The notes below the pieces were generated by a model, which was not told the origin of the DNA, searched no databases, and saw only the letters and a program-made list of their open reading frames with translations. Positions 1,050-28,464 of a DNA stretch of 28,464 nucleotides are shown here, piece by piece. Numbering within the stretch: position 1 is the stretch's first letter; every line of letters starts with the position of its first letter. Made by a program: the position numbers and the translations under genes. The DNA comes from a virus: the IMG/VR virus record IMGVR_UViG_3300022200_003906, positions 1 through 28,464 of that record; one strand, given 5' to 3'.

Positions 1050-1074
1050 TAGATAACGTATTAAGGATTGGGAA

Positions 1075-5872: not shown

Positions 5873-5902
5873 AAGCAGATACTAACAAACAAGGAGTTAG
5901 AC

Positions 5903-7033: not shown

Positions 7034-7036
7034 ATA
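7030..7036 (+). promoter_or_regulatory. Late promoter for gp13
   Basis: CTAAATA overlaps the TAA stop of the upstream gene. The predicted start is near 7042 with a 19-nt leader containing AAGGA-like and ACAGGAT elements before the ATG at 7061. It lets gp13 be expressed late although the gene lies downstream of an early transcription unit. Confidence 0.6.
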
Positions 7037-7060
7037 GTGTAATAAGGATGGACAGGATAT

Positions 7061-8281: not shown

Positions 8282-8306
8282 CAACTACTCAACACTCTAC
8301 TATAAT
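8278..8306 (+). promoter_or_regulatory. Consensus sigma-70 promoter placed for a leaderless transcript
   Basis: TTGACA (8278-8283) and TATAAT (8301-8306) are exact consensus with a 17-nt spacer. The usual start, seven bases after the -10 box, is 8313, the A of the ATG of the exonuclease gene. There is no room for a Shine-Dalgarno sequence. The -35 box includes the stop codon of the upstream gene. Confidence 0.92.
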
Positions 8307-8312
8307 ACAACT

Positions 8313-9477: not shown

Positions 9478-9485
9478 ACTAATCT

Positions 9486-9492
9486 TATTTAT
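9486..9492 (-). promoter_or_regulatory. Late promoter very close to the nuclease start
   Basis: On the minus strand GATAAATAAGATTAGTATG puts the late box 8 nt before the ATG at 9477. The expected start is about 9480, giving a leader of only about 3 nt and no Shine-Dalgarno. A second, one-mismatch box (TATAAATC) lies upstream at about 9519-9512. Confidence 0.55.
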
Positions 9493-9541: not shown

Positions 9542-9548
9542 ATAAATA
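9542..9548 (+). promoter_or_regulatory. Late promoter for tail sheath gp18
   Basis: ATAAATA lies 31 nt before the gp18 ATG. The predicted start near 9554 gives a leader of about 26 nt with CGAGGAAA as ribosome binding site, the layout expected for a highly expressed structural gene. Confidence 0.75.
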
Positions 9549-9579
9549 GATATAACAACATATTAACGAGGAAATCAAT

Positions 9580-12903: not shown

Positions 12904-12910
12904 ATAAATA
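12904..12910 (+). promoter_or_regulatory. Late promoter for tail tube gp19
   Basis: ATAAATA lies 32 nt before the ATG at 12943. The predicted leader holds a good ribosome binding site, TAGGAGAAA (12929-12937). Confidence 0.75.
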
Positions 12911-12942
12911 ATAGCATATACTTTAATTAGGAGAAACATAAA

Positions 12943-13560
12943 ATGGCGGTTTCATCATTAACTAGAATGACAGTACCTTTATCGAGCGATCAATCAAGCT
13001 CAACACAAGGTCTATTAATGCCTAAGCTAAAATATCGCTTCCGCATTATTTTTGAAAACTTTGGTGTATCAACACCACGCACAGAATTAACAAAACAAGT
13101 AATGACATTTGCTCGTCCGCAAGTTTCGTTTGCTGAAGTAAACATCCCAATTTATAACTCAACTGTTAAATTAGCAGGTAAGCATACATGGAATGATGTT
13201 ACTGTAAGTCTACGTGATGATGCGTCTGGCAACGTTAGTAAATTAGTCGGCGAACAATTACAGAAACAATTTGACTTTATGGAAATGAGTTCAGCAAGTT
13301 CTGGTATTGATTATAAGTTCATTACACGTTGCGAAATCCTAGATGGTGGCAACGGTGCGAACGAACCAACTGTGCTAGAAACTTGGGAACTATACGGTTG
13401 TTACCTACAACAAACTAATTATCAAACATTAGATTACGGTTCGAGTGATCCTGTTAGCATTGATCTAACTATTCGTTATGATAATGCCTTACAAACTCCG
13501 CTTGATACAGGTGTTGGAGCACAAGTTGGACGCACATTAGGTACAGTAGTTACTGGCTAA
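12943..13560 (+). CDS. 19: Tail tube protein, T4 gp19-like
   Basis: The 205-residue protein belongs to the gp19 tube family, which stacks as hexameric rings to form the inner tube through which DNA passes. Family-like segments are LMPKLKYRFRIIFENFG (about 25-41), VMTFARPQVSFAEVNIPIYN (about 52-71), GKHTWNDVTVSLRDDASGNV and, near the end, NYQTLDYGSSDPVSIDLTIR, which matches the T4 C-terminal pattern of a conserved strand before the final helix. T4 gp19 is 163 residues; this is moderately longer. It follows gp18 as in T4, with its own late promoter and strong ribosome binding site, in keeping with the high copy number needed. The next, tube-like gene begins 6 nt after its stop. Confidence 0.88.
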   Translation: MAVSSLTRMTVPLSSDQSSSTQGLLMPKLKYRFRIIFENFGVSTPRTELTKQVMTFARPQVSFAEVNIPIYNSTVKLAGKHTWNDVTVSLRDDASGNVSKLVGEQLQKQFDFMEMSSASSGIDYKFITRCEILDGGNGANEPTVLETWELYGCYLQQTNYQTLDYGSSDPVSIDLTIRYDNALQTPLDTGVGAQVGRTLGTVVTG

Positions 13561-15640: not shown

Positions 15641-15648
15641 TATAAATA
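15641..15648 (+). promoter_or_regulatory. Perfect late promoter 6 nt before a start codon
   Basis: TATAAATATACATTATG contains the exact T4 late octamer TATAAATA followed by 6 nt and the ATG at 15655. The predicted start is 15654, one base before the AUG, so this mRNA would be essentially leaderless. Confidence 0.75.
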
Positions 15649-15654
15649 TACATT

Positions 15655-16146
15655 ATGGGATACCGCAAACTACAATATTCAAATGTTCAAGGCTCACGTA
15701 GTACAGAAACACTAGGGCACGGTGTTATTGCTGTTGACGAAAACGATAACTCATTATACATTGGCGACGGTTCTACCGTTGGCGGTAATCCTGTTAACGC
15801 AGCAAATAGTGTAAACACAATCACGCACACCGCCAATACATTAGCGTCAGGAACAAACTGGGGCGACGGCAGCGATATTAGTGTATCAGACAATTCACAA
15901 ACAGAATTTCTAACCATATCAAATAGCCTTGGCGCACTCGGTCGCGCCTCGTTGCCGATTATAACCACTGCTGGCAAAATGCTTATTATGATTGCTACCG
16001 ACGGCGACGATAGCACTTTAGTTGATTACACAAGATTAGATGCTGGTGGCACACAAGCCTCTGTTCAAGTTGGCGATGGTCCAACTAGTGTTGCTATTAT
16101 GATTTCGTTGGGAAGTCGTGGGTGGCAGTTAATACCGCAATCTTAA
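15655..16146 (+). CDS. Small fibre-like virion protein
   Basis: The 163-residue protein begins YRKLQYSNVQGSRSTETLG and then GVIAVDENDNSLYIGDGSTV, the same general pattern as the tropism-determinant-like N-terminus of the fibre gene at 1075 (a strand, a variable helix, then GE/GV-x-A-x-D...L-x-IGDG). The rest is Ser/Thr/Gly-rich beta sequence ending in MISLGSRGWQLIPQ. I infer a small fibre, tip or decoration protein, but the family is not firmly known. It has its own late promoter with almost no leader and stands between gp4 and gp16, away from the main fibre genes. Confidence 0.7.
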   Translation: MGYRKLQYSNVQGSRSTETLGHGVIAVDENDNSLYIGDGSTVGGNPVNAANSVNTITHTANTLASGTNWGDGSDISVSDNSQTEFLTISNSLGALGRASLPIITTAGKMLIMIATDGDDSTLVDYTRLDAGGTQASVQVGDGPTSVAIMISLGSRGWQLIPQS

Positions 16147-16197
16147 CCTCCCTTCTTAGCAATCTCACGCAATAACTCTTACTATTAAAAATAGTCA

Positions 16198-16204
16198 ATA
16201 AATA
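16198..16204 (+). promoter_or_regulatory. Late promoter for gp16, leaderless geometry
   Basis: AATAAATACGACTATG: the late box is followed by exactly 5 nt and the ATG at 16210. With the T4 box at -12 to -6 the start falls on the A of the AUG. A small stem (ACTATT/AATAGT, 16181-16195) lies just upstream. Confidence 0.7.
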
Positions 16205-16209
16205 CGACT

Positions 16210-16689
16210 ATGAAGAAACTTGAAGAACTTTTTGATCTCCCAGAATCAGGTTCTGATCACGAACCACTTGTATCTGAATCAGAAGAATCATTTAGCATTC
16301 CGCAAACTTATGAAGGATATAGTAACTTAGAAAAAATTGATGCTGCGTTACCTGCTGTTAAAGGGTTAGAAGCAAGCGATAAGGAAATGGATAGTCTTGC
16401 CGAGATGGCTACTAAAACATACCAGGATTTAGTTGATTTGGGCATGAACGTAGAAGCACGGTTTTCATCTGAGATTTTTAGTGTAGCGGCAACGATGTTA
16501 GGACATGCTATTACAGCAAAGACAGCTAAAATGAACAAGAAACTTAAAATGATTGATCTACAATTAAAGAAACAAAAATTAGATCAAGATCGTGGCGACG
16601 AAGATGCTACCACTAGCACCGGACATATTTTAGATCGCAATGAACTTCTTGAAAAGCTATTGAACCCAAATACGAACAATGACGCATAA
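16210..16689 (+). CDS. 16: Terminase small subunit, T4 gp16-like
   Basis: The 159-residue product has the size and layout of T4 gp16 (164 residues), the ring-forming regulator of DNA packaging that works with gp17. After an acidic N-terminus come GLEASDKEMDSLAEMATKTY (about 54-73), DLVDLGMNVEARFSSEIFSV and TMLGHAITAKTAKMNKKLKM, followed by the Lys-rich helix IDLQLKKQKLDQDRG. The central part is strongly helical with heptad-like spacing, as expected for the oligomerizing core. gp17 lies 5.8 kb downstream rather than next door; the genes between them are mostly unknowns plus a radical SAM enzyme and two nucleases. The late promoter has the 5-nt leaderless spacing. Confidence 0.85.
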   Translation: MKKLEELFDLPESGSDHEPLVSESEESFSIPQTYEGYSNLEKIDAALPAVKGLEASDKEMDSLAEMATKTYQDLVDLGMNVEARFSSEIFSVAATMLGHAITAKTAKMNKKLKMIDLQLKKQKLDQDRGDEDATTSTGHILDRNELLEKLLNPNTNNDA

Positions 16690-16692
16690 ATA
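16686..16692 (+). promoter_or_regulatory. Late promoter starting inside a hairpin
   Basis: ATAAATA overlaps the stop codon of gp16. The expected start, 16698, falls inside the left arm of the hairpin at 16693-16714, so late transcripts would lack about five of its nine base pairs. Confidence 0.7.
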
Positions 16693-16714
16693 TACTTAAC
16701 TCAGGAGTTAAGTA
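16693..16714 (+). promoter_or_regulatory. Hairpin that masks the ribosome binding site of the gene at 16716
   Basis: TACTTAACT pairs perfectly with AGTTAAGTA around a CAGG loop. The ribosome binding site AGGAG (16703-16707) is partly in the loop and partly in the stem, and the ATG starts 2 nt after it. A transcript coming through from gp16 would form the full stem; one started at the late promoter would not. T4 uses the same design for lysozyme gene e and the I-TevI ORF. Confidence 0.6.
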
Positions 16715-16715
16715 A

Positions 16716-17267
16716 ATGCGCTCGCTACACGAATTTTTAACAGAATCTAAAAAATCATATGAATACCGCATCAAGTATGTTGGTGACTTTACAAAAGAAA
16801 AGCAAGATATCTTAAAGAACATCCTTGCTAAATTTAATCCGCAATCATACGGTGCTATTAAAACTAGTCCTGTTATGAAATGTCCATATGATTTTCCAAG
16901 TTTTGAAAATGAATCTGTAAGTTCAATGGATGTTACATTAGAATATCCTGCGTCAATCTCACAAATTATGGAATTAGCATCAACTAGAGGGTGTGATGTT
17001 AATCGTTTGAAGATTTTAGATAAACGGTTTTCGGATTCAATTAATACTGAGCATGATAACAAAGAAGAAGGTACAATATTAGATAATGCCGAACTTCCTG
17101 CTCAAAATAAAGAACAAAAAGAAGCGGCAGAAGCGTACGGTAATAGTTTTCAAGATGTAGTTAAAAACATGGAGACTCGCAAGTATGAAATTGCCGGCGG
17201 CGAAACCTCTGTAGCATCAACAACAAATGATTTACCGCAAGGTACAAAAAGTCCGTTAGGAAGCTAA
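16716..17267 (+). CDS. Unknown protein with a short head-protein-like leader
   Basis: The 183-residue protein opens MRSLHEFLTESKKSYEYRIK. Its N-terminal pattern (Met, charged, Leu, two residues, hydrophobic, Leu, then Glu) recurs in the next genes and resembles the short leaders of T4-type internal head proteins, but cleavage is not shown. The body mixes strands and helices (YVGDFTKEKQDILKNIL, VTLEYPASISQIMELAST) to about residue 110, then becomes acidic and disordered, ending in a Ser/Thr/Gly tail. I do not recognise the family. Its translation may depend on the late promoter because the ribosome binding site sits in a hairpin. The next gene follows after 6 nt, so the two are probably co-transcribed. 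Confidence 0.75.
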   Translation: MRSLHEFLTESKKSYEYRIKYVGDFTKEKQDILKNILAKFNPQSYGAIKTSPVMKCPYDFPSFENESVSSMDVTLEYPASISQIMELASTRGCDVNRLKILDKRFSDSINTEHDNKEEGTILDNAELPAQNKEQKEAAEAYGNSFQDVVKNMETRKYEIAGGETSVASTTNDLPQGTKSPLGS

Positions 17268-17273
17268 TTAAAA

Positions 17274-18737
17274 ATGGATTTATATAAAATTTTAGAAAAT
17301 TTTAATCAAGTGTCGCGTGTAGTTAATGAAGCACCACCGCCTGAGAGGTCGTCTGTATCATTATGGTCACACCTTAAACCAGCAGATGAGGAATGTAGAT
17401 TAAAAATGAAAGATATTCCTCGTCCAATCGATGATCCGAAATTTGACCCAATTAAAAAACAATTAAAATCGCCGGTACCAGATGAAAATGACTGGGTTCC
17501 AGACTGTAAAAATTTAGCCTGGGTCCCAGCAAATAGAAAGGCATTAGTCTGGTGGCAAGAAGCATTAGAAGAACTTTCTGATTATCATGATGTTGAAGGA
17601 AAGGATCCTCTATTAAGTCCAACTAAAGAAGAATCATGGGGTGCTCTTGCTAGACAATTACAGTTGTATGTTTTTAATAGCACCCCTGGACAAAAATGGT
17701 GGGCGCAATACCCAGACCATTCCTGGGAAATGTTAGTTAGACTAATCAACGAGGTAGCTGAACTCTATGGCGACATGTATGATAAAGGACAGAAAAAAGG
17801 AGCGGAACAACATCCTGGACCTGGAGGCGTAACATATTGGTTAGCCAGCGATGACGAAGTAGTTGATATGTTTAAGGGATTAGTATACATTTACCCATCA
17901 CCACGTGTTGTATGGGGAAAAGATGAAATGGATGTTAGCGAAAGTAAAGAAATTTCAGAATCCACAGATGTAAATGAATTGATTGAATTAATTGCTAGCG
18001 AAGCATATATTAGAATGCCTCAAGTATTTAACGAACATGGCGACGACTATATAATGTCAATTATTGATGATGTTGCTAACAAATATGCCGGTAAAGATGC
18101 TAGTATCGATGAGATGTTATATGCGTTAACTGAGAAATTAGAAGATGATGAAGATCTCAATGAAGGTGCCGCAACAGTATTCAGTGATGCTAAAGGGCAT
18201 CATTTAAAAAATGCCGGCGGTGAAGTCGTACAAAGTTTTGAAGGAACACCAGAAGGCTTGCGACAAGCTCGCAATGCTCTATACGCAAATTACAATGTAT
18301 TAAGCATGGAAAAACCCAAGGAAAGTGCCATGAATGAATTTAAAAATAAATTTGAAAAAGCTCTTAACGAGTCCTTAACCATTAACACAACTGCTGGTAC
18401 AGATCAGCCAGATTCGGTTAATGTTACAGCAACAGATGAAGATGCACATACACTTATTGCTATTCTTAAAGCAGCAGGTTTGCCATACAAAGAACAAGAA
18501 GCTAAATTAGTAGCAGCAACTCCTTGTGCAATGGGCGAAGCTGACGACAATTTAGCATATACACCAAATGATGCTAACTCATTAGCAGGTAGTGTTGATA
18601 CAATGGTTAACCAATTAGCCGGCGGATTAAATCGTGCTAAATCTCAATACAGAAAAGAATATCCTGGCGATAATCCAATGGCAGTTAATGAAGAAAACTT
18701 AATGCGTGGTCTTTGGGACTTATATAAAAAGGTATAA
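17274..18737 (+). CDS. Unknown acidic protein, probable virion or head component
   Basis: The 487-residue product starts MDLYKILENFNQVSRVVNEA, again with the leader-like pattern. Residues about 20-225 form a Trp-rich globular region (WVPANRKALVWWQEALEELS, WWAQYPDHSWEMLVRLINEV, GGVTYWLASDDEVVDMFKGL). Residues about 236-300 are acidic and helical. After AATVFSDAKGHHLKNAGGEV an internal leader-like segment, KESAMNEFKNKFEKALNES (about 348-366), introduces NTTAGTDQPDSVNVTATDED, AHTLIAILKAAGLPY and a tail. The last module is one I recall from unknown proteins of marine T4-like phages. The arrangement suggests a fusion of two units that each began with a leader. No enzyme motif is visible. It has no obvious Shine-Dalgarno and is followed after 2 nt by the next gene. 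Confidence 0.8.
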   Translation: MDLYKILENFNQVSRVVNEAPPPERSSVSLWSHLKPADEECRLKMKDIPRPIDDPKFDPIKKQLKSPVPDENDWVPDCKNLAWVPANRKALVWWQEALEELSDYHDVEGKDPLLSPTKEESWGALARQLQLYVFNSTPGQKWWAQYPDHSWEMLVRLINEVAELYGDMYDKGQKKGAEQHPGPGGVTYWLASDDEVVDMFKGLVYIYPSPRVVWGKDEMDVSESKEISESTDVNELIELIASEAYIRMPQVFNEHGDDYIMSIIDDVANKYAGKDASIDEMLYALTEKLEDDEDLNEGAATVFSDAKGHHLKNAGGEVVQSFEGTPEGLRQARNALYANYNVLSMEKPKESAMNEFKNKFEKALNESLTINTTAGTDQPDSVNVTATDEDAHTLIAILKAAGLPYKEQEAKLVAATPCAMGEADDNLAYTPNDANSLAGSVDTMVNQLAGGLNRAKSQYRKEYPGDNPMAVNEENLMRGLWDLYKKV

Positions 18738-18739
18738 CA

Positions 18740-19144
18740 ATGGAATCAATTTATACAATTTTAGAATCGTTGAATGTAGTTGAAGGTTTTAGAAATAAAC
18801 GAGAAGCACAAGCATATCTTGTGAGTGTGTATAAAGAAAACGATTATGATATGTCATACGAAGATTGGCTAGATGATATTCGTAATGGTGGTTATTCTCC
18901 GGCTATAACCAGAGCAGTTAAAGCAATTGACACACTTCAAGAAGCAGAAGAAGAAGAAAAACGTTATTATGTGACGGTTGGGATGATGATGTATGCTGAT
19001 AGTGACGAAGCAGTCGTTAAAAAAGCCGAAGCGTTTGCTAGCCAATTAAGGGCCAAACATGATAACCGTGCTAATGTATTAAGTGTATATGAAAACCCAT
19101 TTGGGTCACTAACCGATCGCAAAGTAATAGATAAATTAGACTAA
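18740..19144 (+). CDS. Unknown small acidic protein
   Basis: This 134-residue protein begins MESIYTILESLNVVEGF, nearly the same start pattern as its upstream neighbour (MDLYKILENFNQVSRVVNE), which supports a shared leader or a common origin. After RNKREAQAYLVSVYKENDYD and a helical stretch there is an acidic run EAEEEEK (about 68-74), then a small alpha/beta unit, YYVTVGMMMYADSDEAVVKK. No family is recognised. Its stop shares one base with the ATG of the next gene, so translation is coupled. Confidence 0.75.
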   Translation: MESIYTILESLNVVEGFRNKREAQAYLVSVYKENDYDMSYEDWLDDIRNGGYSPAITRAVKAIDTLQEAEEEEKRYYVTVGMMMYADSDEAVVKKAEAFASQLRAKHDNRANVLSVYENPFGSLTDRKVIDKLD

Positions 19145-20118
19145 TGAAAAAACTTTCAGATTATATGTTTGACGTACAAAAGCCGCATGTAGGCGATACT
19201 GTGGTTATTAGTGTTAACAACGAATATGTAATTGAAAGTAAAATTACAAGGGTAGCAGATCGTATTTCAATTGTAATGGATGCTGCTACAAACGAAGTGT
19301 TAAAACACGCTATTGCTAACGAAGCAAAAGGCACAAGCGTAGTAGATTTTGATCGCATTGGGCGTTACAGCAAATGGGGCAAAGCGTTATTACAAGTATT
19401 AAAATGGTCTAGTAATCCTAACGTGATGGATAAGCACACAACAGATAATGATGTTGTAATTATTATTCGCGACAATGTACTAAATCAAATCTTAGAAAAA
19501 GAAGCGCCGGGCGTTAGTTCAAACCAAATTGCCCTGTATGCCAAAGCGATTCCTGAGCTTGATTATCAATGGGCTTCTAAAAGTAAGCAACATATAATTA
19601 CAATGCCACGTGATTTAAAATTAGCATCGTTTCCAGGGGTTAAAGATGTTGATGAAAGTCAGCTAACATTTGAAAATAACATTTGGAAGTTAGAGTTTAA
19701 TTCTAGTAAACCTGTTGCTGTTATTATCTCTGAGGTAAAACAACAAGCTAAAGAAATTATTGCTGAAGCAAAGGTTGGAAAAATGCCTTTAAACTATTGG
19801 GAAGCTAATCCTGGATCAGTATATACAGCAGACAAATACTACGACATGTATCGTGCTTCTATGTTGATGGGTCGTTTATCTAACAAACATTCTGACGAAG
19901 ACTTTGGGGACATTGATGCGTATAGTTGGATTAATAACGCCCCTATGTTAGTTACATATACTCCTGAAGAATATGAAATGGCTAAGCGAGCATTTGCGTT
20001 TATGGGCGTTCCCATGAAAGCACACGTTCCACTAGGAAGTGACGAACCAGCTGCTGTAAACAAAGTATCACCTTTTAAACCATTTAAAGGTTATAAAGGC
20101 GCTCAACGCCGCTCCTAA
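19144..20118 (+). CDS. Unknown protein
   Basis: The 324-residue product starts MKKLSDYMFDVQKPHVGDTV; the ATG overlaps the previous stop by one base. The first 75 residues look like a small beta barrel (GDTVVISVNNEYVIESKITR, VADRISIVMD). The middle has NDVVIIIRDNVLNQIL and QIALYAKAIPELDYQWASKS. The C-terminal 120 residues carry AKVGKMPLNYWEANPGSVYT and ADKYYDMYRASMLMGRLSNK, a pattern I recall from unknown proteins of other marine phages, and end in a basic tail (GYKGAQRRS). No catalytic motif or membrane segment is seen. It is the last gene of the coupled set starting at 16716. A virion role is inferred from neighbours only. Confidence 0.78.
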   Translation: MKKLSDYMFDVQKPHVGDTVVISVNNEYVIESKITRVADRISIVMDAATNEVLKHAIANEAKGTSVVDFDRIGRYSKWGKALLQVLKWSSNPNVMDKHTTDNDVVIIIRDNVLNQILEKEAPGVSSNQIALYAKAIPELDYQWASKSKQHIITMPRDLKLASFPGVKDVDESQLTFENNIWKLEFNSSKPVAVIISEVKQQAKEIIAEAKVGKMPLNYWEANPGSVYTADKYYDMYRASMLMGRLSNKHSDEDFGDIDAYSWINNAPMLVTYTPEEYEMAKRAFAFMGVPMKAHVPLGSDEPAAVNKVSPFKPFKGYKGAQRRS

Positions 20119-20124
20119 TAAGTA
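20118..20124 (+). promoter_or_regulatory. Possible weak late promoter for the radical SAM gene
   Basis: ATAAGTA, one mismatch from ATAAATA, lies exactly 5 nt before the ATG at 20130. The spacing equals that of the leaderless class, which makes the imperfect box more believable; by itself it would not be called. Confidence 0.35.
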
Positions 20125-20129
20125 ATTAT

Positions 20130-21269
20130 ATGAATAAAACTTACTGTGCCGCTCCGTGGCATGGCCTCCATATTAATCCTTTTGGAAACGTAAAAACCTG
20201 CTGTGCTGGCGATCCTAATATTCTAGGCGATTTAAACACGTCTAATATTAGTGATATATTGTTTGGCGATAAGTTAAAAGAAATACGTGCTACGTTACGC
20301 GAAGGTCGTATGCATGAACAATATTGTTATAATTGTATACAAGCAGAGAGATATGGTCGTAGCGAAAGAGATTGGCATAATTCTGTTAGCGAAGATTTTG
20401 ACTCAACAACCGCAGAGTTAGATTATCATAGACCTGTACTAGTTGATGTACGTTGGAACATTACTTGTAATCAATCATGTAATTATTGTGGCGATAAATG
20501 TAGTAGTAAATGGGCAGCATTACAAGGTATCCCCCATAAGTCTCAGGTCCGGCCTTATTACCAACAAGTTCACGACTATTTAGAACAGTATCAAGGCTGG
20601 GTGAGAGAAGTAGCATTAGTCGGCGGCGAGCCATTATTGCTTCCGGAAAACGAACGCTTATTAGATATTATTCCTGAAGGAGTTACGGTTACAGTTATCA
20701 CTAATTTTAGTATGGACCTAGCTAGTAACAAAATATTTGAAAAATTATCGCAGAGAAATAAAGTTGGATGGAGTTTAAGTTTTGATAACATCAGTGAGCG
20801 GTATGAATATGTGCGATACGGAGGAAAATGGGAACAACTTGAACGCAATATAGAATTACTCAAACCTTTATTTGAAAAAGGACATTGGGGCGGAATACAC
20901 GCAGTATACAATTTATACAATGCTACACGTTTAAATGAATTCACGGTCTGGGCAAGAAAAAATAACTTAGCAATACAATGGCAAAGTTTATATCAGCCAG
21001 ATTGTTTAGATCCGTTGAAACATAACAGCGAAGTTAAAAGAATAGCACGAACAGAAATAGAAACATTACTCAAAAGAACTGATTTAACCGATAGCGAGCG
21101 CAATTTCTTTGAAACAGCACTAAATAATTTTAACGGTGCTGAAGAACAAGACGAGTTAACAAAGCTCGCACAGCACATAAATGATATAGAGACACTATAT
21201 CATTCCGATAAAGCAGGCTATTTTCTCAAATTATGGCCTGAACTGGCTTGTGCCTTAGGACCATTATAG
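20130..21269 (+). CDS. Radical SAM enzyme with N-terminal auxiliary iron-sulfur motif
   Basis: The 379-residue protein has the radical SAM signature C113-x3-C117-x2-C120 (NITCNQSCNYC), which binds the 4Fe-4S cluster that cleaves S-adenosylmethionine, and the SAM-contacting GGEP at 165-168. Ahead of it lies CAAPWHGLHINPFGNVKTCC (C6, C24, C25) and YCYNC (C66, C69), a SPASM/twitch-like set of Cys that probably holds a second cluster. In most such enzymes this part is C-terminal, so the order is unusual. Family members modify peptides, proteins or small molecules; the substrate here is unknown, and no obvious short precursor peptide gene sits beside it. It lies between unknown virion genes and the packaging genes, so modification of a virion protein or a host target is conceivable. 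Confidence 0.88.
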   Translation: MNKTYCAAPWHGLHINPFGNVKTCCAGDPNILGDLNTSNISDILFGDKLKEIRATLREGRMHEQYCYNCIQAERYGRSERDWHNSVSEDFDSTTAELDYHRPVLVDVRWNITCNQSCNYCGDKCSSKWAALQGIPHKSQVRPYYQQVHDYLEQYQGWVREVALVGGEPLLLPENERLLDIIPEGVTVTVITNFSMDLASNKIFEKLSQRNKVGWSLSFDNISERYEYVRYGGKWEQLERNIELLKPLFEKGHWGGIHAVYNLYNATRLNEFTVWARKNNLAIQWQSLYQPDCLDPLKHNSEVKRIARTEIETLLKRTDLTDSERNFFETALNNFNGAEEQDELTKLAQHINDIETLYHSDKAGYFLKLWPELACALGPL

Positions 21270-21360
21270 GCACGGCTTACGGCAAAATCCGTAGGCGTCT
21301 GGTGCTAGCTACCCAGAAGCAAATCTCGCTACCATTGCTTTTAAAGTGAGAAGCCCGTGT
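21270..21360 (+). ncRNA. Candidate structured RNA or attenuator leading into a terminator
   Basis: The gap after the radical SAM gene can form several nested stems: CACGGCTT (21271-21278) with AAGCCCGTG (21351-21359, one bulged C); ACGG/CCGT (21279-21292); TCTGG/CCAGA (21298-21317); and AAGCAA/TTGCTT (21317-21340). A further pairing TCTCGCT/AGTGAGA (21324-21351) would cross the last stem as an H-type pseudoknot. The outer stem uses the left arm of the terminator at 21351-21374, so the two are mutually exclusive, as in riboswitches and attenuators. No known RNA family fits well. It may instead be just a folded 3' untranslated region. Confidence 0.3.
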
Positions 21361-21374
21361 AAGCGGGCTTTTTT
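21351..21374 (+). terminator. Intrinsic terminator after the radical SAM gene
   Basis: AAGCCCG pairs with CGGGCTT around a TGTAAG loop and is followed by a T-run. It separates the radical SAM transcript from the GIY-YIG gene, whose own late promoter starts 3 nt later. Confidence 0.9.
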
Positions 21375-21376
21375 AT

Positions 21377-21383
21377 GTAAATA
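21377..21383 (+). promoter_or_regulatory. Late promoter for the GIY-YIG gene, leaderless geometry
   Basis: GTAAATAGTATTATG: the late box, exactly 5 nt, then the ATG at 21389. It follows directly on the terminator T-run, so the gene is an independent unit with no room for a leader. Confidence 0.65.
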
Positions 21384-21388
21384 GTATT

Positions 21389-21919
21389 ATGAAAATTAAT
21401 GAAGTATTTCCGCCACTAGGCAAGTCTGTAAGATATAATTTTTTTGATATCTTTAGCTTTGTGCGTGTTAAGGAAAACGGAAAATTAAAAATTTCACTGA
21501 ACCGCAGCCGCCCTGCTGAAACAAAACGCTCAGGCATCTACGTGTGGTATCATCCAGACTGGGGATACTTCTATGTAGGTATTGCCGCAGCAGACAACTT
21601 CACAGAGCGTTGGAATAAGCATATTCAAAAACTATTAGATAATTGTTCTAGTGCAAAACAAATGAAAAATTGGAAAGCGTTTGCTGATAAATTTAAAGCA
21701 GCAGGGTATGGAATTGATGATTTAAAAGACATTACATTACGTTTCTTTCCTATAGCCAGCCGCACAGAGTTTCCGGGCGAGGAAGAAGAGTTTAAAAAGT
21801 ATTTGTCTGATATTGAAACACGTATTGTTGGTATTATTAACCCTGCGTGTAATAAAGAATACAATCCAGAGCGCCGTAGCGCAACACGGTTCCCTACAGC
21901 AAAAATTAACGCTGATTAA
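21389..21919 (+). CDS. GIY-YIG family endonuclease
   Basis: The 176-residue protein shows the family core: GIYVWYHPDWG (G49-I50-Y51), then YFYVGIAAADN (Y62-V63-G64), R74 in FTERWNKHIQ, and a catalytic Glu candidate E143 in SDIETRIVGI followed by INPACNKEYN. Such enzymes cut DNA with one metal ion. Whether this is a homing endonuclease or serves repair, exclusion or DNA processing cannot be told; no separate DNA-binding zinc finger is seen, unlike the nuclease gene at 8821-9477. It sits alone between a terminator and a convergent HNH gene, which it overlaps by 14 nt, next to the large terminase. Late expression is predicted from the promoter. Confidence 0.82.
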   Translation: MKINEVFPPLGKSVRYNFFDIFSFVRVKENGKLKISLNRSRPAETKRSGIYVWYHPDWGYFYVGIAAADNFTERWNKHIQKLLDNCSSAKQMKNWKAFADKFKAAGYGIDDLKDITLRFFPIASRTEFPGEEEEFKKYLSDIETRIVGIINPACNKEYNPERRSATRFPTAKINAD

Positions 21920-22448
21920 TTACAATAGGTTCTTGTTCTAAGTTTAAGTACTGTGCCCACGAAGGGTGATTGATGCGTATCTGAGTCTTGCGTATTGAAT
22001 TTGCTAATTGATAATAATCTGGTGTAAACGGAGCACGTTTAGGTTTAATTAAACGATCACTCTTATCCCAGTTACAAGGCTTACAAGCAGTGACACAATT
22101 ATCCCATTCTGTTTTGCCACCGTGACTTTTTGGGACAACATGATCTATAGTTAATTGTGTAGGTGTAAAAGTATCTCCGCAATATTGACATTGAAACATG
22201 TCTCGAATATATAGGTTTGCTCTACTAAACGTTTTTGTTTTGCGTTTAGTATATCCAGACTTTAATGCAATCACACTAGGAACACGCATAATAGTCTTTT
22301 GACTGTGAACGTTCCAATCATCGTACCATTCTAGTACATGTACCTTGTCAAGAAATAATAGTTTAATTGCTTGTTGCCAATGTACAGCACTAAGCGGAAT
22401 GTAACTTAGTGGTTGGTAATCTGGACCTAGAACTAATGTGTGAGCCAT
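21906..22448 (-). CDS. HNH endonuclease
   Basis: The 180-residue protein has a full HNH finger of the HNH_5-like type: zinc pair C87-x2-C90 (FQCQYCGD), the LTIDHVVPKSHGG segment with D102-H103, W115-D116-N117 and the second zinc pair C122-x2-C125 (ACKPCN). The N-terminal 80 residues (HTLVLGPDYQPLSYIPLSAV, WQQAIKLLFLDKVHVLEW) match the usual front domain of bacterial and cyanophage homologues. It is transcribed divergently from gp17 through a shared palindromic promoter. HNH nucleases beside the terminase assist packaging in some other phages, while in T4-like phages they are often mobile elements; both readings are open. It would be expressed together with gp17. Confidence 0.88.
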   Translation of the reverse strand: MAHTLVLGPDYQPLSYIPLSAVHWQQAIKLLFLDKVHVLEWYDDWNVHSQKTIMRVPSVIALKSGYTKRKTKTFSRANLYIRDMFQCQYCGDTFTPTQLTIDHVVPKSHGGKTEWDNCVTACKPCNWDKSDRLIKPKRAPFTPDYYQLANSIRKTQIRINHPSWAQYLNLEQEPIVINQR

Positions 22449-22450
22449 TG

Positions 22451-22470
22451 TTGTATTTACGTAAATACAA
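22451..22470. promoter_or_regulatory. Palindromic divergent late promoter for gp17 and the HNH gene
   Basis: TTGTATTTACGTAAATACAA is a perfect 20-bp palindrome. Each strand reads GTAAATA (22461-22467 on plus, 22460-22454 on minus), a late box, and in each direction exactly 5 nt separate it from an ATG (22473 plus, 22448 minus). Both genes would thus be started leaderless from one symmetrical site. Confidence 0.7.
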
Positions 22471-22472
22471 TT

Positions 22473-24038
22473 ATGTCTAAATCTTTAGAAGGCGTTTTAG
22501 TTAAAAAAGCACATAGCAAAATGAATTACACTCCTGAGCAAATTCAGGAGTTTGTAAAATGTGCTGATCCTACAACCGGCGCCATATATTTTATGGACAA
22601 CTTCTTTAATATTCAACACCCGACCAAAGGTAAGATGATTTATCATCCGTTTGAATATCAAAAAGAATTAATTAACACGTACCATAACTATCGTTTTAGT
22701 ATTAGCTTAATGCCTAGACAATCTGGTAAGTCCACTAGTGCTGCTGGTTATTTGTTATGGTATGGAATGTTTAAACCAGATTCGACCATCCTTATTGCTG
22801 CGCACAAATACTCCGGCGCACAAGAAATTATGCAGCGTATTCGTTATGCGTATGAGTTATGCCCGGATCACATACGAGCCGGGGTTACATCATATAACAA
22901 AGGTTCTATAGAGTTTGACAATGGATCACGTATTGTAGCCCAAGCGACCACTGAAAACACTGGACGTGGTATGTCCATTACACTCCTGTATTGCGACGAG
23001 TTCGCTTTTGTGCGACCTACGATTGCGAAAGAATTCTGGACTTCAATTTCACCTACACTATCAACAGGTGGTAAGGCAATTATTACCTCCACACCAAACT
23101 CAGACGAAGACCAGTTTGCGTTAATTTGGAAACAGGCTAATAAAACTGAAGATGAGTTTGGTAACGAAACAGAATTAGGTATTAACGGATTCCGTGCCTA
23201 TAGATCTTATTGGAGAGACCACCCAGACAGAGATGACAAGTGGGCTGAAGAAGAACGTGGTCGCATTGGCGAAGAACGTTTCCGTCGTGAAATGGATTGC
23301 GAATTCATCATCAACGACGAGACTCTTATTAATGCAACTACCCTTGTAGATCTGGAAGGCATCGAACCAACATACAAAACAGGACAAGTACGTTGGTATA
23401 AAGAGCCACAACCAGGTCGTGTTTATGTAGTAGCACTTGATCCATCGTTAGGAACAGGCGGCGACCCTGCTGCTATACAAGTGTTTGAAGCAAATACTAC
23501 AACACAAATTGCTGAGTGGAAACATAACAAAACACCTATTCCCACACAAATTCGTATTTTAAATGATATTGTAAAAACAATTTACGATAAAACACAAGAT
23601 GGCACTTCCATATATTATTCGATTGAAAACAATACAATTGGCGAAGCAGCACTTATTAGTTTAGCAGAATTTGGTGAAGACAATTTTCCTGGTATGATGC
23701 TATCTGAACCTAAATCAGCAGGATCAGGAAGACGTTTCCGCAAAGGATTTAATACTACTAACAAGTCTAAGATTTCTGCTTGTGCTAAACTTAAAAATTT
23801 AGTAGAAACTAAGAAGATGACTGTTAATAGTAAAAGTTTAATTTCTGAATTCAAAACATTTGTAGCACACGGCACAAGTTATGCTGCTAAGATTGGCGAA
23901 ACAGACGACTTAGTAATGGCAACTGTTCTTGCTGTACGTATGATGCAAGTACTACAAAACTACCACGCTGAACTTAACACACAAATTGCTGATTTTGGAG
24001 ATGAGGTTATTGAGCCAATGCCGTTTATAATGTTCTAA
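22473..24038 (+). CDS. 17: Terminase large subunit, T4 gp17-like
   Basis: This is the packaging motor ATPase and headful nuclease, 521 residues from the ATG at 22473. The frame is open to a GTG at 22440, but that start would lie upstream of the promoter's predicted start. ATPase motifs: Walker A MPRQSGKST (80-88), Walker B LLYCDEFAF (171-179; D175, E176) and coupling motif IITSTPNS. Nuclease domain: D323 in VVALDPSLGTGG, E385 in YYSIENN and D478/D479 in GETDDLVMA, the RNase H-like acidic set. T4 gp17 is longer (610 residues). It works with gp16 and the portal, which is not in the window. The HNH gene shares its promoter. Confidence 0.97.
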   Translation: MSKSLEGVLVKKAHSKMNYTPEQIQEFVKCADPTTGAIYFMDNFFNIQHPTKGKMIYHPFEYQKELINTYHNYRFSISLMPRQSGKSTSAAGYLLWYGMFKPDSTILIAAHKYSGAQEIMQRIRYAYELCPDHIRAGVTSYNKGSIEFDNGSRIVAQATTENTGRGMSITLLYCDEFAFVRPTIAKEFWTSISPTLSTGGKAIITSTPNSDEDQFALIWKQANKTEDEFGNETELGINGFRAYRSYWRDHPDRDDKWAEEERGRIGEERFRREMDCEFIINDETLINATTLVDLEGIEPTYKTGQVRWYKEPQPGRVYVVALDPSLGTGGDPAAIQVFEANTTTQIAEWKHNKTPIPTQIRILNDIVKTIYDKTQDGTSIYYSIENNTIGEAALISLAEFGEDNFPGMMLSEPKSAGSGRRFRKGFNTTNKSKISACAKLKNLVETKKMTVNSKSLISEFKTFVAHGTSYAAKIGETDDLVMATVLAVRMMQVLQNYHAELNTQIADFGDEVIEPMPFIMF

Positions 24039-24039
24039 C

Positions 24040-24046
24040 ATAAATA
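24040..24046 (+). promoter_or_regulatory. Late promoter for the 1159-residue protein gene
   Basis: ATAAATA starts 2 nt after the gp17 stop. The predicted start is near 24052, with a leader of about 18 nt and a weak GAAG ribosome binding site before the ATG at 24070. Confidence 0.65.
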
Positions 24047-24069
24047 CAACATATTAATGAAGAAATATA

Positions 24070-27000
24070 ATGAATAGCACAGCAAATGATCTTTTTAATT
24101 TATTAGTTGGCAGAGATTACACAGTTAAAACACTTAGTAACCAAGGAAAACCTGTGGTTAATCCAAGTGAAGCCGAAATGTTTTCGTTTGACTTTGAAAC
24201 TTCAAACAGTAATTATGGCACGGTAGTAATTCTTCTAGATGACGAAAGTAACTTTGAAGTTTATTATGGCGATAATATTGGCAAGAACATGGAAGGCAAC
24301 GATAAAGATGTTTGGTATGATTTCTTAAATCAGCTAAAACGTTTTGCTACTCGTAACTTGTTAAACTTTAATCTAAAGAATCTAAATAAATTAAAATATT
24401 CTATGCAAGGCATGGCTGCTATCAATGAAGGTTTGTTTGAAGGCTGGAACGGCACTAAACACACCAGCTATAATAATAAACCAGGTACAACACGACTAAA
24501 GATTGTACACAGTAAAGCAATTGAAGAAGGTGAGCAACGCTGGAGAGCAATTGACAAACTGTATGTCGAAAACGCCGACGGTGAACGCTTTAAGTTACCA
24601 TTTACATCATTGGTTGCTGGACGTGCCATGGCACGTCACGTAGCTGAAGGTGGCACACCATATGACGTATTTGGTCAACATATTATTGACATTGTTCGCG
24701 AAGCAAACGTACTAGCTAAGTTTACGCAAGCGACTCGCACCATTACAGAAGAAGACGGTGAGCAGTTTGATGTAGTTGAAGCTGGTCGCGAACGCTACAA
24801 AACTCTACGTCATCGTTTAAAAAGTTTAGCAGGTAAGCGTGGATATCACGCTTATAAAGAATCGTGGAATCCAGCAACAATTGAAGAAGGTATTGCAGAT
24901 ACCAACGATTTACATCGTATTTTTACACGTGAAACTATTGATCCGCGAATTGAAGAAGCGTTACCATATCTAACACACACTACTAAAGAAACCGAATCTA
25001 AGGAATCGACCATGAAAGAATTTGACAAATTTGCCAATTGGGCAGACAGTATCACCGAAGGCACCTGGGCCATTCCAGATGACGAAACTAAAATTAAACA
25101 ATTAAAAAATATTTTAGCAGAGCCACTGCCTGTTGGAGTTGATGCAATGAATGCTACTAATGTGCTTTATGATATTATTGGTGACGATGGATTGTTTGAT
25201 AGTTTAGCAGAATTAGCAGATGAAGATCCTGAAGCAGATGCTCGTCCAATTATTGAACATTGGATTGAAATGTATACTAATTCTTATCCAGGATTAGAAG
25301 ATCTAGCTGATCGTATACTTAGTGGAAATGATGAATTAGAATTTGAAGAAGCTCAAGATTTTGACGCACGTGGAATGAACAAATATGGGTTGAGTGCTGT
25401 TAAAGGCCCAGACGGGTTTTACGCTTTAGTTGATGGTAAGGTAGTTGCTGGTCCTTTTGCTTCATTGGAAGAATTAAAAGCATACCAAGAAGAAGAATTA
25501 AACAAAGATGTTAATGAACAGCTAGATATCGATACCGGCAAAGAACAACGTAAGCAAGAGCGCGACTCGATGTTAGAAATGAACGCATATCGTCGGTTAG
25601 CTGGGCTACAAGAAAAAGTTTACGAAAATTTTGATGCGTTTACAAAATCAGAGTCGCAACAAGTAGAAGAAGGATTCCACGATACTCCGTTATTAGACAA
25701 AGAAGATTTCTTAGAAAAAAGTAAAGCATTATACGATATGATGATGAATCCAGAGTTTCAAGATGAAGAAACTCTGCAATTAATTCAGGATCGTATTAAT
25801 CGCTTAAATGATGAAGCACGCAAAATGGGTATTATTGAAACTACTGAGCAAGAACGTGCTAATAGCTTAAAACAAGATATTTTAGGAGAGCTAGATGCTA
25901 GCGATCTAGGCAAAGAAGGTGTTGATTGGTTTGCTCCTGCAGACACAGAACCATACGATCCAGAACGCGATGATCCACGTGATGATCCTAACTATGGGTT
26001 TGACCGTAAGCCAACTAAACCACAACCAACAATTGCGCCAGGAGCAAAGAAGACACAAGAAGCTAACGCTGGTAGTTTTGGGCAGCAAGATGACGAGCTA
26101 GGACAAGGTAAGAATACAGATCCGGCTCAAATTGTTCCAGGGCATGAAGGCATGAAAGACGAAAAGTTAGAAGAAGCACCGGGTGACGAACAACTACCAC
26201 CAGGGTATTCGCGTGTAGGACCTAGAGGTGTTTTAGTAGGTCCATCGGGTAATTTATCAAACTGGAGAGATCCAAACATGGATCCAGACTACTGGGCCAG
26301 AGATAACATGACCAAGTACGATATGGATGCTGATAATGAATGGGATGAACTTGAAAACTGGTTAACTAGTGGTTCATACAAGGCAGGTAACGATCTACGT
26401 AGATCAATGATGCTTAAAAAATACGGATTAGATCAAGGCGTCACCCCAGAAAAACTAGCAAAAGCAAGAGCAAAAGCAGATGCTATTAAAAAAGCAGCAC
26501 AAGACAAAGAAGACAAGTTCTATAAAGATATGGAAATTGCTCGTATCTTAGGACGCGATGCAGGATCTACTGCTGACCTAGAAAGAAACCGTGCTGAAAC
26601 AGAAAAAGAACTTGCTGGTCTTAGAAAAAATGCTGGGTTAGCTACTTCTATTAAAGCAACACCATTAAATGTATCAAACAAGACTGGTTCTAAGGGTTCT
26701 GTTAACGTAGGACAAGGTTGGAGCGATCAAATGGATATCGATGACCTAGATCGTGTAAGTGCTAAGTATGGCACTAGTCCTGCTTCGGATCAAACCGCAG
26801 CACTAGCACACCAGGAGCGTGAATTTGCTCCAGGTAGTGACGAAGCGTGGGATCAATACGTAGCGAAGCACGGTAGCAAGAGCAAAGTTCCAACTACTAG
26901 AAAGATGGGCATGGACGTAATGGATCTTGGGCTAAAGGGTGAAAGCAAAGTTAGTGAAGCAGGTAAGCCAGATTATCTAGATTTAGATAAAGATGGTAAC

Positions 27001-27549
27001 AAAAAAGAGCCAATGAAGCAGGCTGCTAAAGACGCTGAAAAGAAAGACGACAAAGAACTCGACGAACGCTCACTAACAAAAGGCGAAGAAAAGAAACGCG
27101 AAAAGTATGTTAAGGGCATGAAAAAATCAAAAGCAGACTTCAAAAAGCGTTACGGTAAGCGTGGCGAAGAAGTAATGTACGCAACTGCTACCAAGATGGC
27201 AAAAGAAGGCGAAGGCGAAACTACCGGAGGAACAAACGTGTACGGCAAAGGAATTTATGAAAGTTTAACAGAACTTGAAAACGACTTAGATGTAGCACTA
27301 GGCAATGGTATTACTGCTACTAGTCAATTAGACAAACCAGAAAATCCGGTTAATATGATTGAACCAGATGAAATTAGCACCACTGATGTTCCAGTCGGAA
27401 TCCCAACTGATATGGATGTTGAAATTGTCGCAGCAGAACCTAAAGAAAAGAACTTAGGCGATAAGATTGCCGATAAAGGCGCAGAACTAAGCGCACAAAT
27501 TGATGCCGCACTAGCGGATATTAAACGATTAGCGGGAATGGGCAACTAA
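24070..27549 (+). CDS. Very large charged protein of unknown function, probable virion component
   Basis: At 1159 residues this is the largest protein in the window. Residues about 120-280 form a conserved-looking block: NEGLFEGWNGTKHTSYN, GTTRLKIVHSKAIEEGEQRW, LPFTSLVAGRAMARHVAEGG, TPYDVFGQHII and LKSLAGKRGYHAYKESW. I recall this from unknown proteins of marine T4-like phages. A leader-like segment, KESTMKEFDKFANWADSITE (about 312-331), starts a second part. From about 480 it is highly charged and low in complexity. PDYLDLDKDGNKKEPMKQAA (about 968-987) contains a DxDxDG loop like a calcium-binding site, followed by a Lys-rich helix ending RYGKRGEEVMYATATKMAKE. Position after gp17 and the composition suggest a head, scaffold or injected protein. 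Function is unknown. Confidence 0.85.
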   Translation: MNSTANDLFNLLVGRDYTVKTLSNQGKPVVNPSEAEMFSFDFETSNSNYGTVVILLDDESNFEVYYGDNIGKNMEGNDKDVWYDFLNQLKRFATRNLLNFNLKNLNKLKYSMQGMAAINEGLFEGWNGTKHTSYNNKPGTTRLKIVHSKAIEEGEQRWRAIDKLYVENADGERFKLPFTSLVAGRAMARHVAEGGTPYDVFGQHIIDIVREANVLAKFTQATRTITEEDGEQFDVVEAGRERYKTLRHRLKSLAGKRGYHAYKESWNPATIEEGIADTNDLHRIFTRETIDPRIEEALPYLTHTTKETESKESTMKEFDKFANWADSITEGTWAIPDDETKIKQLKNILAEPLPVGVDAMNATNVLYDIIGDDGLFDSLAELADEDPEADARPIIEHWIEMYTNSYPGLEDLADRILSGNDELEFEEAQDFDARGMNKYGLSAVKGPDGFYALVDGKVVAGPFASLEELKAYQEEELNKDVNEQLDIDTGKEQRKQERDSMLEMNAYRRLAGLQEKVYENFDAFTKSESQQVEEGFHDTPLLDKEDFLEKSKALYDMMMNPEFQDEETLQLIQDRINRLNDEARKMGIIETTEQERANSLKQDILGELDASDLGKEGVDWFAPADTEPYDPERDDPRDDPNYGFDRKPTKPQPTIAPGAKKTQEANAGSFGQQDDELGQGKNTDPAQIVPGHEGMKDEKLEEAPGDEQLPPGYSRVGPRGVLVGPSGNLSNWRDPNMDPDYWARDNMTKYDMDADNEWDELENWLTSGSYKAGNDLRRSMMLKKYGLDQGVTPEKLAKARAKADAIKKAAQDKEDKFYKDMEIARILGRDAGSTADLERNRAETEKELAGLRKNAGLATSIKATPLNVSNKTGSKGSVNVGQGWSDQMDIDDLDRVSAKYGTSPASDQTAALAHQEREFAPGSDEAWDQYVAKHGSKSKVPTTRKMGMDVMDLGLKGESKVSEAGKPDYLDLDKDGNKKEPMKQAAKDAEKKDDKELDERSLTKGEEKKREKYVKGMKKSKADFKKRYGKRGEEVMYATATKMAKEGEGETTGGTNVYGKGIYESLTELENDLDVALGNGITATSQLDKPENPVNMIEPDEISTTDVPVGIPTDMDVEIVAAEPKEKNLGDKIADKGAELSAQIDAALADIKRLAGMGN

Positions 27550-27574
27550 ACCCAAGCGATATACGCTAAAACAC

Positions 27575-27600
27575 AACGGGTCTTTTTAGACCCGTTTTTT
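27575..27600 (+). terminator. Intrinsic terminator after the 1159-residue gene
   Basis: AACGGGTCT pairs perfectly with AGACCCGTT around a TTTT loop and is followed by a T-run. Confidence 0.93.
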
Positions 27601-27606
27601 ATTGTC

Positions 27607-27613
27607 TTAAATA
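27607..27613 (+). promoter_or_regulatory. Late promoter for the terminal gene, leaderless geometry
   Basis: TTAAATAAACAAATG: a late-type box, exactly 5 nt, then the ATG at 27619. It lies 7 nt beyond the terminator, repeating the terminator-promoter-ATG layout at 21351-21389. Confidence 0.6.
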
Positions 27614-27618
27614 AACAA

Positions 27619-28464
27619 ATGGACGCAATAGCATTAATTAATTATCCTGGACATTTTTTATCTACGCTAGGAACTATTAAAAACTTTTTAGAGATAACAG
27701 AATGGCGTCCTCCGTGGTATATTTTTGTTGACGATCTAGGACCGCAATGGGATGCTTGGCCAAATTATCTACAAGATTTAAAAACAGCAATTGATAATAA
27801 TTTTCCAGAATTAAATCCCACATATATTTTGTTTTCAGAATTTCAATTTCCTTATATATGGGATGGTTGGTTAAGACAGCAAATAGTTAAACTTAACTTA
27901 GATCGGTTCTTACCTGGGGATCTGTGGTATGTTACCGATGGCGATGTTATTTGCGAAAGATTGATCTCTGCTAATGAAATTCCTTACAATTATCAAAAAA
28001 CGCATAATACATTAATTAATGCGCAACAGCATTCATATTTAAAACAAATGCTAGGAATCAGCGAAACATTAAACATCAATGGTGATAATATATACACGCA
28101 TCATATTCCTGTTAGATGGGTAGCTAGAGATGACTTACATGGTTTATATAGGCACATTTCTGATGTAAATGGAAACGATTCAAACATTGTTCATTTTAAC
28201 TTAATGAAAAACGAACGTATAATTGGATACGGCCCTACAGCAGAACATCAAAGTATGACAGAGTGGGATTTATTAGAAACATGGCGTATTTTAATAGACA
28301 AACAACAATCTCACTTTGAATATTGGTTAATTGATGATGGCGGACAACCGGAGCCTGATCACGCACCTACATACATAAAAACGTTTTTTGGTACAGATCG
28401 CGATAAAACACTGGAATACTTTCAAAAACAGGGTCTACAGGTACCTGTAGACCCTGTTTTTGAA
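27619..28464 (+). CDS. Glycosyltransferase-like protein (DUF6492-type), 3' end missing
   Basis: The frame is open for 282 codons from the ATG to the window edge without a stop, so the gene is partial. GWLRQQIVKLNLDRFL (83-98) followed by DLWYVTDGDVI (101-111), with D107 and D109 as a DxD-like metal site, fits the glycosyltransferase group called DUF6492, in which a QQ-x-x-KL helix precedes the acidic motif. Such proteins would transfer a sugar from a nucleotide-sugar donor; donor and acceptor are unknown here. A phage might use it to glycosylate virion proteins or change host surface sugars. The last 15 codons lie inside a perfect 44-bp palindrome, so the extreme C-terminus should be treated with caution. 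Confidence 0.7.
   Translation, partial: MDAIALINYPGHFLSTLGTIKNFLEITEWRPPWYIFVDDLGPQWDAWPNYLQDLKTAIDNNFPELNPTYILFSEFQFPYIWDGWLRQQIVKLNLDRFLPGDLWYVTDGDVICERLISANEIPYNYQKTHNTLINAQQHSYLKQMLGISETLNINGDNIYTHHIPVRWVARDDLHGLYRHISDVNGNDSNIVHFNLMKNERIIGYGPTAEHQSMTEWDLLETWRILIDKQQSHFEYWLIDDGGQPEPDHAPTYIKTFFGTDRDKTLEYFQKQGLQVPVDPVFE
28421..28464. repeat. Perfect 44-bp palindrome at the window end
   Basis: Bases 28421-28442 are the exact reverse complement of 28443-28464, with the centre at GT/AC. The core CAGGGTCTACAG/CTGTAGACCCTG is flanked by A5 and T5, the shape of a bidirectional terminator, but it lies in an open reading frame. Its end coincides with the window end, which is also what a contig breaking at a fold-back would show. 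Confidence 0.85.

Follow-up and report, generated by a model that had tools for sequence, protein, structure and literature searches.

Promoters apparently placed for leaderless mRNAs beside Shine-Dalgarno-led promoters in a clade of large T4-type phages

The stretch of DNA considered here, hereafter the window, is a 28,464-base fragment of a large T4-type myovirus (IMG/VR record IMGVR_UViG_3300022200_003906), whose genes include those for sheath, tube, head-tail connector, an exonuclease, an HNH nuclease, a radical-SAM protein and the large terminase. No near DNA match to the window was found among 50,697 phage records, and among cultured phages the nearest terminases are those of Pseudomonas phage PA5oct (53.6%) and of Sinorhizobium phage Phosso (51.9%). 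The subject is the distance between promoter and start codon. In the clade to which this phage belongs, the late box is of the T4 type, i.e., TATAAATA-like with a core TAAATA and A enriched before it. An earlier sequence-only reading of the window held that such boxes lie either about 5 nucleotides (nt) before the ATG, which would give leaderless mRNAs, or much farther upstream, usually with a Shine-Dalgarno (SD) sequence in the leader, and that the phage thereby has two modes of late translation, namely leaders for high-copy tail proteins and none for packaging, nuclease and enzyme genes, perhaps to keep their dose low or to select a ribosome state late in infection.

Relatives were gathered through the terminase, giving 80 related loci (L numbers), some on contigs of 200-340 kb, and the genome-scale set comprises most or all of nine uncultivated relatives (G001, G002, G003, G005 and G007-G011). 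The comparison phages were T4, Syn9, PA5oct, Atu_ph07 (400 kb), HTVC008M, Mosig, P-SSM2 (240 kb) and Cr30. The distance (d) is the number of nt from each TAAATA to an ATG whose frame stays open for at least 60 codons, the expected count is the mean over 14 permuted hexamers (the other arrangements of AAAATT), and genes were classed by gap as short (d4-6), as a subclass (d7-8) or as leadered (d14-32).

The short gaps reported for the window are all present, namely the five exact cases of TAAATA 5 nt before ATG, with starts at 16210, 21389, 22473 and 27619 (plus strand) and 22448 (minus strand), a box with one mismatch (TAAGTA) 5 nt before 20130, and TAAATA 6 nt before 15655 and 8 nt before 9477 (minus strand). 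They are given below.

16199-16212, plus strand: late box TAAATA, 5-nt gap and ATG of gene 16210-16689 (conserved phage protein, phrog_16202)
21378-21391, plus strand: late box, 5-nt gap and ATG of gene 21389-21919; conserved in L006 and L007
22446-22459, minus strand: late box, 5-nt gap and ATG of the HNH nuclease gene 21906-22448
22462-22475, plus strand: late box, 5-nt gap and ATG of the large terminase gene 22473-24038
22454-22467, both strands: divergent back-to-back late boxes forming the palindrome TATTTACGTAAATA; same arrangement in L006 and L007
27608-27621, plus strand: late box, 5-nt gap and ATG of the gene starting at 27619 (DUF6492-like); L006, L013 and L113 also have the short gap
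20119-20132, plus strand: variant box TAAGTA, 5-nt gap and ATG of the radical-SAM gene 20130-21269; TAAGTA also in L013
15643-15657, plus strand: late box, 6-nt gap and ATG of gene 15655-16146
9475-9491, minus strand: late box, 8-nt gap and ATG of gene 8821-9477; fits the 7-8-nt subclass

Several of these sites have counterparts elsewhere. Orthologs of gene 16210 in nine divergent relatives keep the box 4-5 nt from the ATG despite diverged neighbouring DNA, and the HNH nuclease has the leaderless geometry in five of five orthologs from different genomes (d=5, 5, 5, 6 and 8); for gene 15655, an ortholog with a comparable start was sought among the relatives and none was found. The two boxes of the palindrome TATTTACGTAAATA stand 2 bp apart and serve the HNH nuclease and the terminase, both predicted to be leaderless. 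HTVC008M has a similar divergent box pair, which separates its DNA end protector gene from its head closure gene (18914-18945).

The seven long gaps of the window were likewise confirmed, and an SD-like motif is found in six of the seven leaders, the one at 24070 being weak.

81-110, plus strand: late box, 21-nt gap, SD and start of gene 108
1044-1077, plus strand: late box, 25-nt gap, SD and start of gene 1075 (tail protein)
7031-7063, plus strand: late box, 24-nt gap, SD and start of gene 7061 (head-tail adaptor); class conserved in orthologs
9543-9582, plus strand: late box, 31-nt gap, SD and start of gene 9580 (tail sheath); from the sequence and ortholog comparison
12905-12945, plus strand: late box, 32-nt gap, AGGAG and start of gene 12943 (tail tube); leadered in 10/10 genomes
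16687-16718, plus strand: late box, 23-nt gap, AGGAG and start of gene 16716 (virion protein); leadered in 10/10 genomes
24041-24072, plus strand: late box, 23-nt gap, weak SD and start of gene 24070 (virion protein)

Within the window, TAAATA-N5-ATG occurs 5 times against 0.97 expected, a count reached by 1 of 100 shuffles, and d4-6 under the 60-codon criterion occurs 6 times against 0.5 expected; taken by itself this excess is statistically weak and no more than suggestive, and it is the relatives that decide. Counted genome-wide there against control sequences, the distances are not flat and form a sharp peak at 5 nt. Over the 80 loci and the window, the counts at d=4, 5, 6 and 7 are 25, 128, 14 and 47, followed by 0-5 per distance at d=8-16 and then by a broad hump, with 17 distinct protein families contributing at d=5. 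Each of the nine relatives exceeds the permuted-hexamer mean at d4-6, by 4- to 11-fold (observed/expected: G001 21/2.8, G002 7/1.6, G003 22/3.1, G005 14/1.3, G007 14/2.2, G008 10/1.6, G009 8/0.9, G010 18/2.2, G011 11/2.8), and every terminase-containing locus (80/80) has at least one d4-8 gene. Pooling the nine relatives with the window gives a bimodal distribution, i.e., 85 genes at d=5, only 2-4 at each of d=9-15, and a hump at 16-32, and with the stricter NATAAATA there are 76 genes at d4-8 and 1 at d9-14. The remark that nothing falls between the two classes thus holds across the clade, d9-13 being at about control level or lower. The variant late box TAAGTA has its own spike at 5 nt (27 genes in the clade), and the other A/T hexamers of TAAATA composition have no such spike. 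In the same genomes, TAAATG occurs 17 times at 5 nt.

What a 5-nt gap would mean depends on where transcription starts. The review of T4 late transcription numbers the 8-bp box from -13, so that its last base is at -6 (PMC2988020); with a box ending at -6, +1 is the sixth base after it, and a 5-nt gap would therefore set +1 on the A of AUG, as had been supposed for the window. The base preference at this position points indirectly the same way: A occupies nt 6 after the box in 58-62% of the clade's leadered promoters, and this position is purine-rich also in leadered promoters of T4, Syn9 and PA5oct. In d=5 genes, nt 6 is the A of AUG and the preceding base is a pyrimidine in 92% of 84, the base before ordinary starts in the same genomes being A in 38%. 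The clade favours (C/G)A before TAAATA where T4 has TA, so the letter at -13 is often C or G and not T, and a related variation of the late box has been noted for Aeh1 (PMC2988020). A gp55-type late sigma, which would read such boxes, is matched (phrog_234, E ~1e-23 to 1e-25) in G002-G007 and G009-G011.

A/T-rich start regions are commonplace, and TAAATA near an ATG could accordingly be an A/T-rich translation enhancer, or merely unstructured sequence before the start, with no promoter at all. This explanation is extremely improbable: A/T hexamers of the same composition lack the spike, and the letters flanking the boxes of short-gap genes match those of leadered late promoters, unlike TAAATA elsewhere (area under the curve 0.73, p=5e-17). 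Moreover, TATAAT accompanied by a -35 element peaks one nt farther from the ATG, the distance expected from its own start-site geometry.

In sigma70 promoters the last base of the -10 hexamer is at -7, so that a 6-nt gap would likewise put +1 on the A of AUG. In the same genomes TATAAT peaks at d=6 with 31 genes, one base beyond the TAAATA peak, neighbouring distances having mostly 2-13. A -35 element that departs from TTGACA at no more than one of its six positions accompanies 15 of these 31, as against 107 of 1436 TATAAT without a gene (7%), and when both hexamers are required the count is 21 genes at d=6 and almost nil over d=11-15, rising again around 29-30. The window has one such promoter with the leaderless geometry, and also a leadered contrast.

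8278-8315, plus strand: sigma70 promoter TTGACA (8278-8283)-N17-TATAAT (8301-8306)-N6 (acaact)-ATG of the exonuclease gene 8313-8837; perfect consensus with leaderless geometry
5844-5905, plus strand: sigma70 promoter TTGACA-N17-TATAAT, 30-nt gap with an AAGGAG SD and ATG at 5903; leadered contrast, read from the sequence

The exonuclease orthologs in L172 (G011) and L189 (G008) have TATAAT-N6-ATG too. Since two promoter types each peak at their own start-site distance, leaderless transcription is the best explanation of both peaks. Since sigma70 promoters are placed at 6 nt, the leaderless habit is not specific to late promoters, which argues against a late-only purpose; of the two late modes first proposed, the two sharply separate promoter-to-AUG geometries stand and their confinement to late promoters does not. 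The sigma70 leaderless class is new with respect to that late-only observation.

The two classes also differ in their SD content, a 4-mer of the SD being found upstream of 82% of 174 d14-32 genes, 6% of 99 d4-6 genes, 4% of 25 d7-8 genes and 40% of other genes, although the deficit in short-gap genes is partly forced, since the box stands where an SD would be. An SD would not fit into a leader of about 4-9 nt, which may account for the trough between the classes. Start-codon identity was rejected as a discriminator, ATG being dominant in both (99/109 at d4-6, 174/198 among leadered genes). The 6-nt and 8-nt cases of the window had been placed in one class with the 5-nt ones; their distances hold, but gaps of 4-6 nt fit no leader and those of 7-8 nt fit a 3-nt leader. 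Of the d=7 genes, 81% have a purine at nt 5, followed mostly by pyrimidines at nt 6-7, and 8/10 of the d=8 genes have a purine at nt 6, a pattern probably corresponding to a 3-nt leader, R-N-N-AUG.

Short-gap boxes could be genuine promoters and the mRNAs mainly translated nonetheless be longer transcripts from upstream, the 5-nt placement then expressing genome compactness. Some short-gap genes do lie close behind same-strand genes (e.g., 15655 and 20130), but several others follow a terminator or lie where two genes diverge (21389, 27619 and 22448/22473): a terminator-like hairpin with a T-run immediately precedes the box at 21378-21391, and a terminator with a 9-bp stem lies at 27575-27596, just upstream of the box at 27608-27621. 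In the clade, terminator-like hairpins are found upstream of 17 of 164 short-gap boxes, as against 21 of 717 TAAATA without a gene. As short-gap genes lack SDs and compactness would not empty the 9-13-nt range, this alternative is very unlikely.

The assignment of genes to a mode, already apparent from single sites, is conserved among orthologs. Among 462 reciprocal-best-hit pairs with boxes in both members, 149 agree in being leaderless, 281 agree in being leadered and 32 are mixed, whereas shuffling within genomes gives 215 mixed pairs on average and 168 at minimum. The 37 families with at least three box-bearing members divide into 10 purely leaderless, 19 purely leadered and 8 mixed, and in leaderless families the N-termini align at the predicted AUG. 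The terminase illustrates a change of mode: a 5-nt box (TAAATA or TAAGTA) is found in L006, L009, L012, L014, L015 and L124, while the close relatives L010 and G001/L113 (94% and 91% identical) keep the box but have a leader of about 20 nt with AAGG, an SD-bearing stretch of about 15 nt lying between box and AUG. As read from these sequences, the difference is a natural gain or loss of a leader, in either direction.

Outside the clade the geometry is far from general. At d4-6 the class is absent from T4 (3 observed, 2.2 expected), Syn9 (0/1.7), PA5oct (3/4.4) and Atu_ph07 (3/2.3), the leaderless geometry was not found in Cr30, and TAAATA-N5-ATG shows no clear excess over control in Phosso, GAP32, KVP40, phiM12, Vibrio 2.275, XaC1 and Hallingskeid; in P-SSM2 there is no more than a trace, with 4 at d=5. 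A general trait of T4-type or alphaproteobacterial phages is therefore rejected, T4, Syn9, PA5oct, Atu_ph07 and Cr30 being without it. Pelagibacter phage HTVC008M, in turn, has 14 TAAATA-N5-ATG, of which 12 lie exactly at database-annotated coding-sequence starts, including a gp25-like wedge, tube cap, DNA end protector, tail completion protein and tape measure, and Mosig EXVC030M has 11, of which 7 are at annotated starts, the excess based on open reading frames being weak. The two share the class at the DNA end protector and apparently also at the tail completion gene; they have the same arrangement as the clade, but belong to a distant T4-type branch (Kyanoviridae) with smaller genomes.

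With respect to known systems, T4 late promoters (gp55/gp33/gp45-dependent, TATAAATA) resemble those of the clade in core box, inferred start-site distance and the gp55 homologs of most relatives, but the T4 box lies mostly 14-32 nt before the start, with no 5-nt class. The leaderless mRNAs of Mycobacterium and Deinococcus are similar in having AUG within ~3 nt of the 5' end (here predicted), no SD and almost always an AUG start. Phage lambda cI has a leaderless mRNA as well; unlike such bacterial and lambda cases, the mode of the clade appears promoter-wide, gene-specific, conserved and used alongside SD-led genes under the same promoter type. Late promoters of phiKZ-like jumbo phages have a short motif at the start codon, and phiKZ has its own multisubunit RNA polymerase. 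If this picture is right, phiKZ shares with the clade late promoter elements very near the AUG, but the T4-type sigma of the clade makes a phage multisubunit RNA polymerase unnecessary. Leaders of phage AR9 measure 26-491 nt, and the same paper mentions, as an aside, that leaderless transcripts are common in phages (PMC5312081). Given that remark, the kind is known and the systematic use of two modes is the new part; no description of a two-mode leaderless class in T4-type phages was found in the open-access literature searched, most subscription journals lying outside the search.

As for the genes concerned, leadered ones encode tube, sheath, head-tail adaptor, gp6-like wedge, tail spike, baseplate lysozyme and virion proteins, and leaderless ones the HNH nuclease, gp25-like wedge, several virion proteins, a heptose-kinase-like enzyme and, in 3/6, the portal. 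The functional division is looser than first proposed: it holds for sheath, tube and other structural proteins but not for the gp25-like wedge and the virion proteins without leaders, and terminase and portal switch class from one relative to another. The gene at L124:920-3154 and its orthologs encode a leaderless virion-structural-like protein whose C-terminal half also matches sigma-70 region 4 (PF04545).

Leader choice may be mainly a matter of dose, leaderless genes encoding low-copy proteins, a functional reading compatible with leaderless transcription. That sheath, tube and many structural genes are leadered speaks for it, as do the proxies: Ala is the second codon in 31% of leadered and 6% of leaderless genes (p=3e-10), and leadered genes score a little higher than leaderless ones in codon adaptation to tube and sheath (0.639 vs 0.619, p=0.004), leaderless genes equalling the remaining ones. 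But effect sizes are small, some structural proteins are leaderless, portal and terminase change class, and bacteria rich in leaderless genes can express such mRNAs well. The low dose once suggested for leaderless genes therefore keeps modest proxies only; a dose role is plausible, and dose as the main purpose a serious but tentative possibility.

Ribosome composition influences leaderless initiation (PMC9031893), and bS21 genes occur in G001, G003, G004, G007 and G008, so leaderless mRNAs might serve a phage-modified ribosome, e.g., through phage-encoded bS21. Yet bS21 is also found in PA5oct and Atu_ph07, both without the spike, was not found in G005, G009, G010 and G011, all with it, and early-type promoters have the same geometry. 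A modified ribosome is hence quite unlikely, and phage bS21 was rejected as the cause because its distribution is mismatched. In L211, L214, L215, L216 and L218, a ClpX-like gene is followed by bS21 with an Hsp20-like gene nearby, an arrangement that recurs in PA5oct. A search for the host through phage bS21 in 84,980 species genomes gave no near match, the one weak hit (38%, a metagenome-assembled Anaerolineales genome) being uninformative.

Taken together, it can be held with high confidence, as far as promoter placement indicates, that a substantial part of the clade's promoters is positioned for +1 to fall on the A of AUG and to yield leaderless mRNA, beside promoters with SD leaders, and that this class has been kept in evolution. 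Clade phages would then probably run two ways of starting translation. On late genes, the T4-type box, presumably read by the phage gp55-like late sigma, would with a 5-nt gap set +1 on the AUG, a sigma70-type promoter would do so at some other genes with a 6-nt gap, and the 7-8-nt subclass would probably give 3-nt leaders. The remaining promoters would stand far enough from the ATG to make room for a leader with an SD, leaders of in-between length, into which no SD fits, would be avoided, and each gene would tend to hold its mode over long evolution. Initiation on leaderless mRNA may be by 70S ribosomes, and leader choice may set translation yield, with leaders for abundant structural proteins and none for many lower-copy ones. 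That leaderless and SD-led modes under the same promoters are held by selection in the clade and, separately, in Pelagibacter phages, with leader gain or loss as an output switch for early and late genes, is somewhat more probable than its opposite.

Several points weigh against this interpretation. The leaderless 5' ends are predicted from promoter geometry rather than taken from mapped RNA, and the absence of an SD within ~11 nt is partly imposed by box placement. No phrog_234 (gp55) match was found in G001, the closest large relative, whose contig may be incomplete, nor in G008, whose contig may be partial, nor is there a gp55-type sigma among the 27 annotated genes of the window. The codon-adaptation difference is small. 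Finally, the window is a fragment, and how well the host tolerates leaderless mRNA would bear on the reading.

Leaderless translation has usually been studied in host genes or in single phage genes such as lambda cI, and the clade offers a natural comparison of leaderless and SD-led translation under one promoter. Gene calling is affected, start codons without an SD appearing real here, and the cultured carrier HTVC008M, growing on Pelagibacter, makes the class directly testable.

A last observation concerns gene 8821-9477 on the minus strand, in which an A at nt 6 after the box likely gives the 3-nt leader AGU. Its 218-aa product has an N-terminus weakly matching homing endonucleases, and its best hits group it with nine 115-aa leaderless proteins of relatives, whose alignment with it leaves out its first 70 residues, possibly owing to an insertion or fusion.

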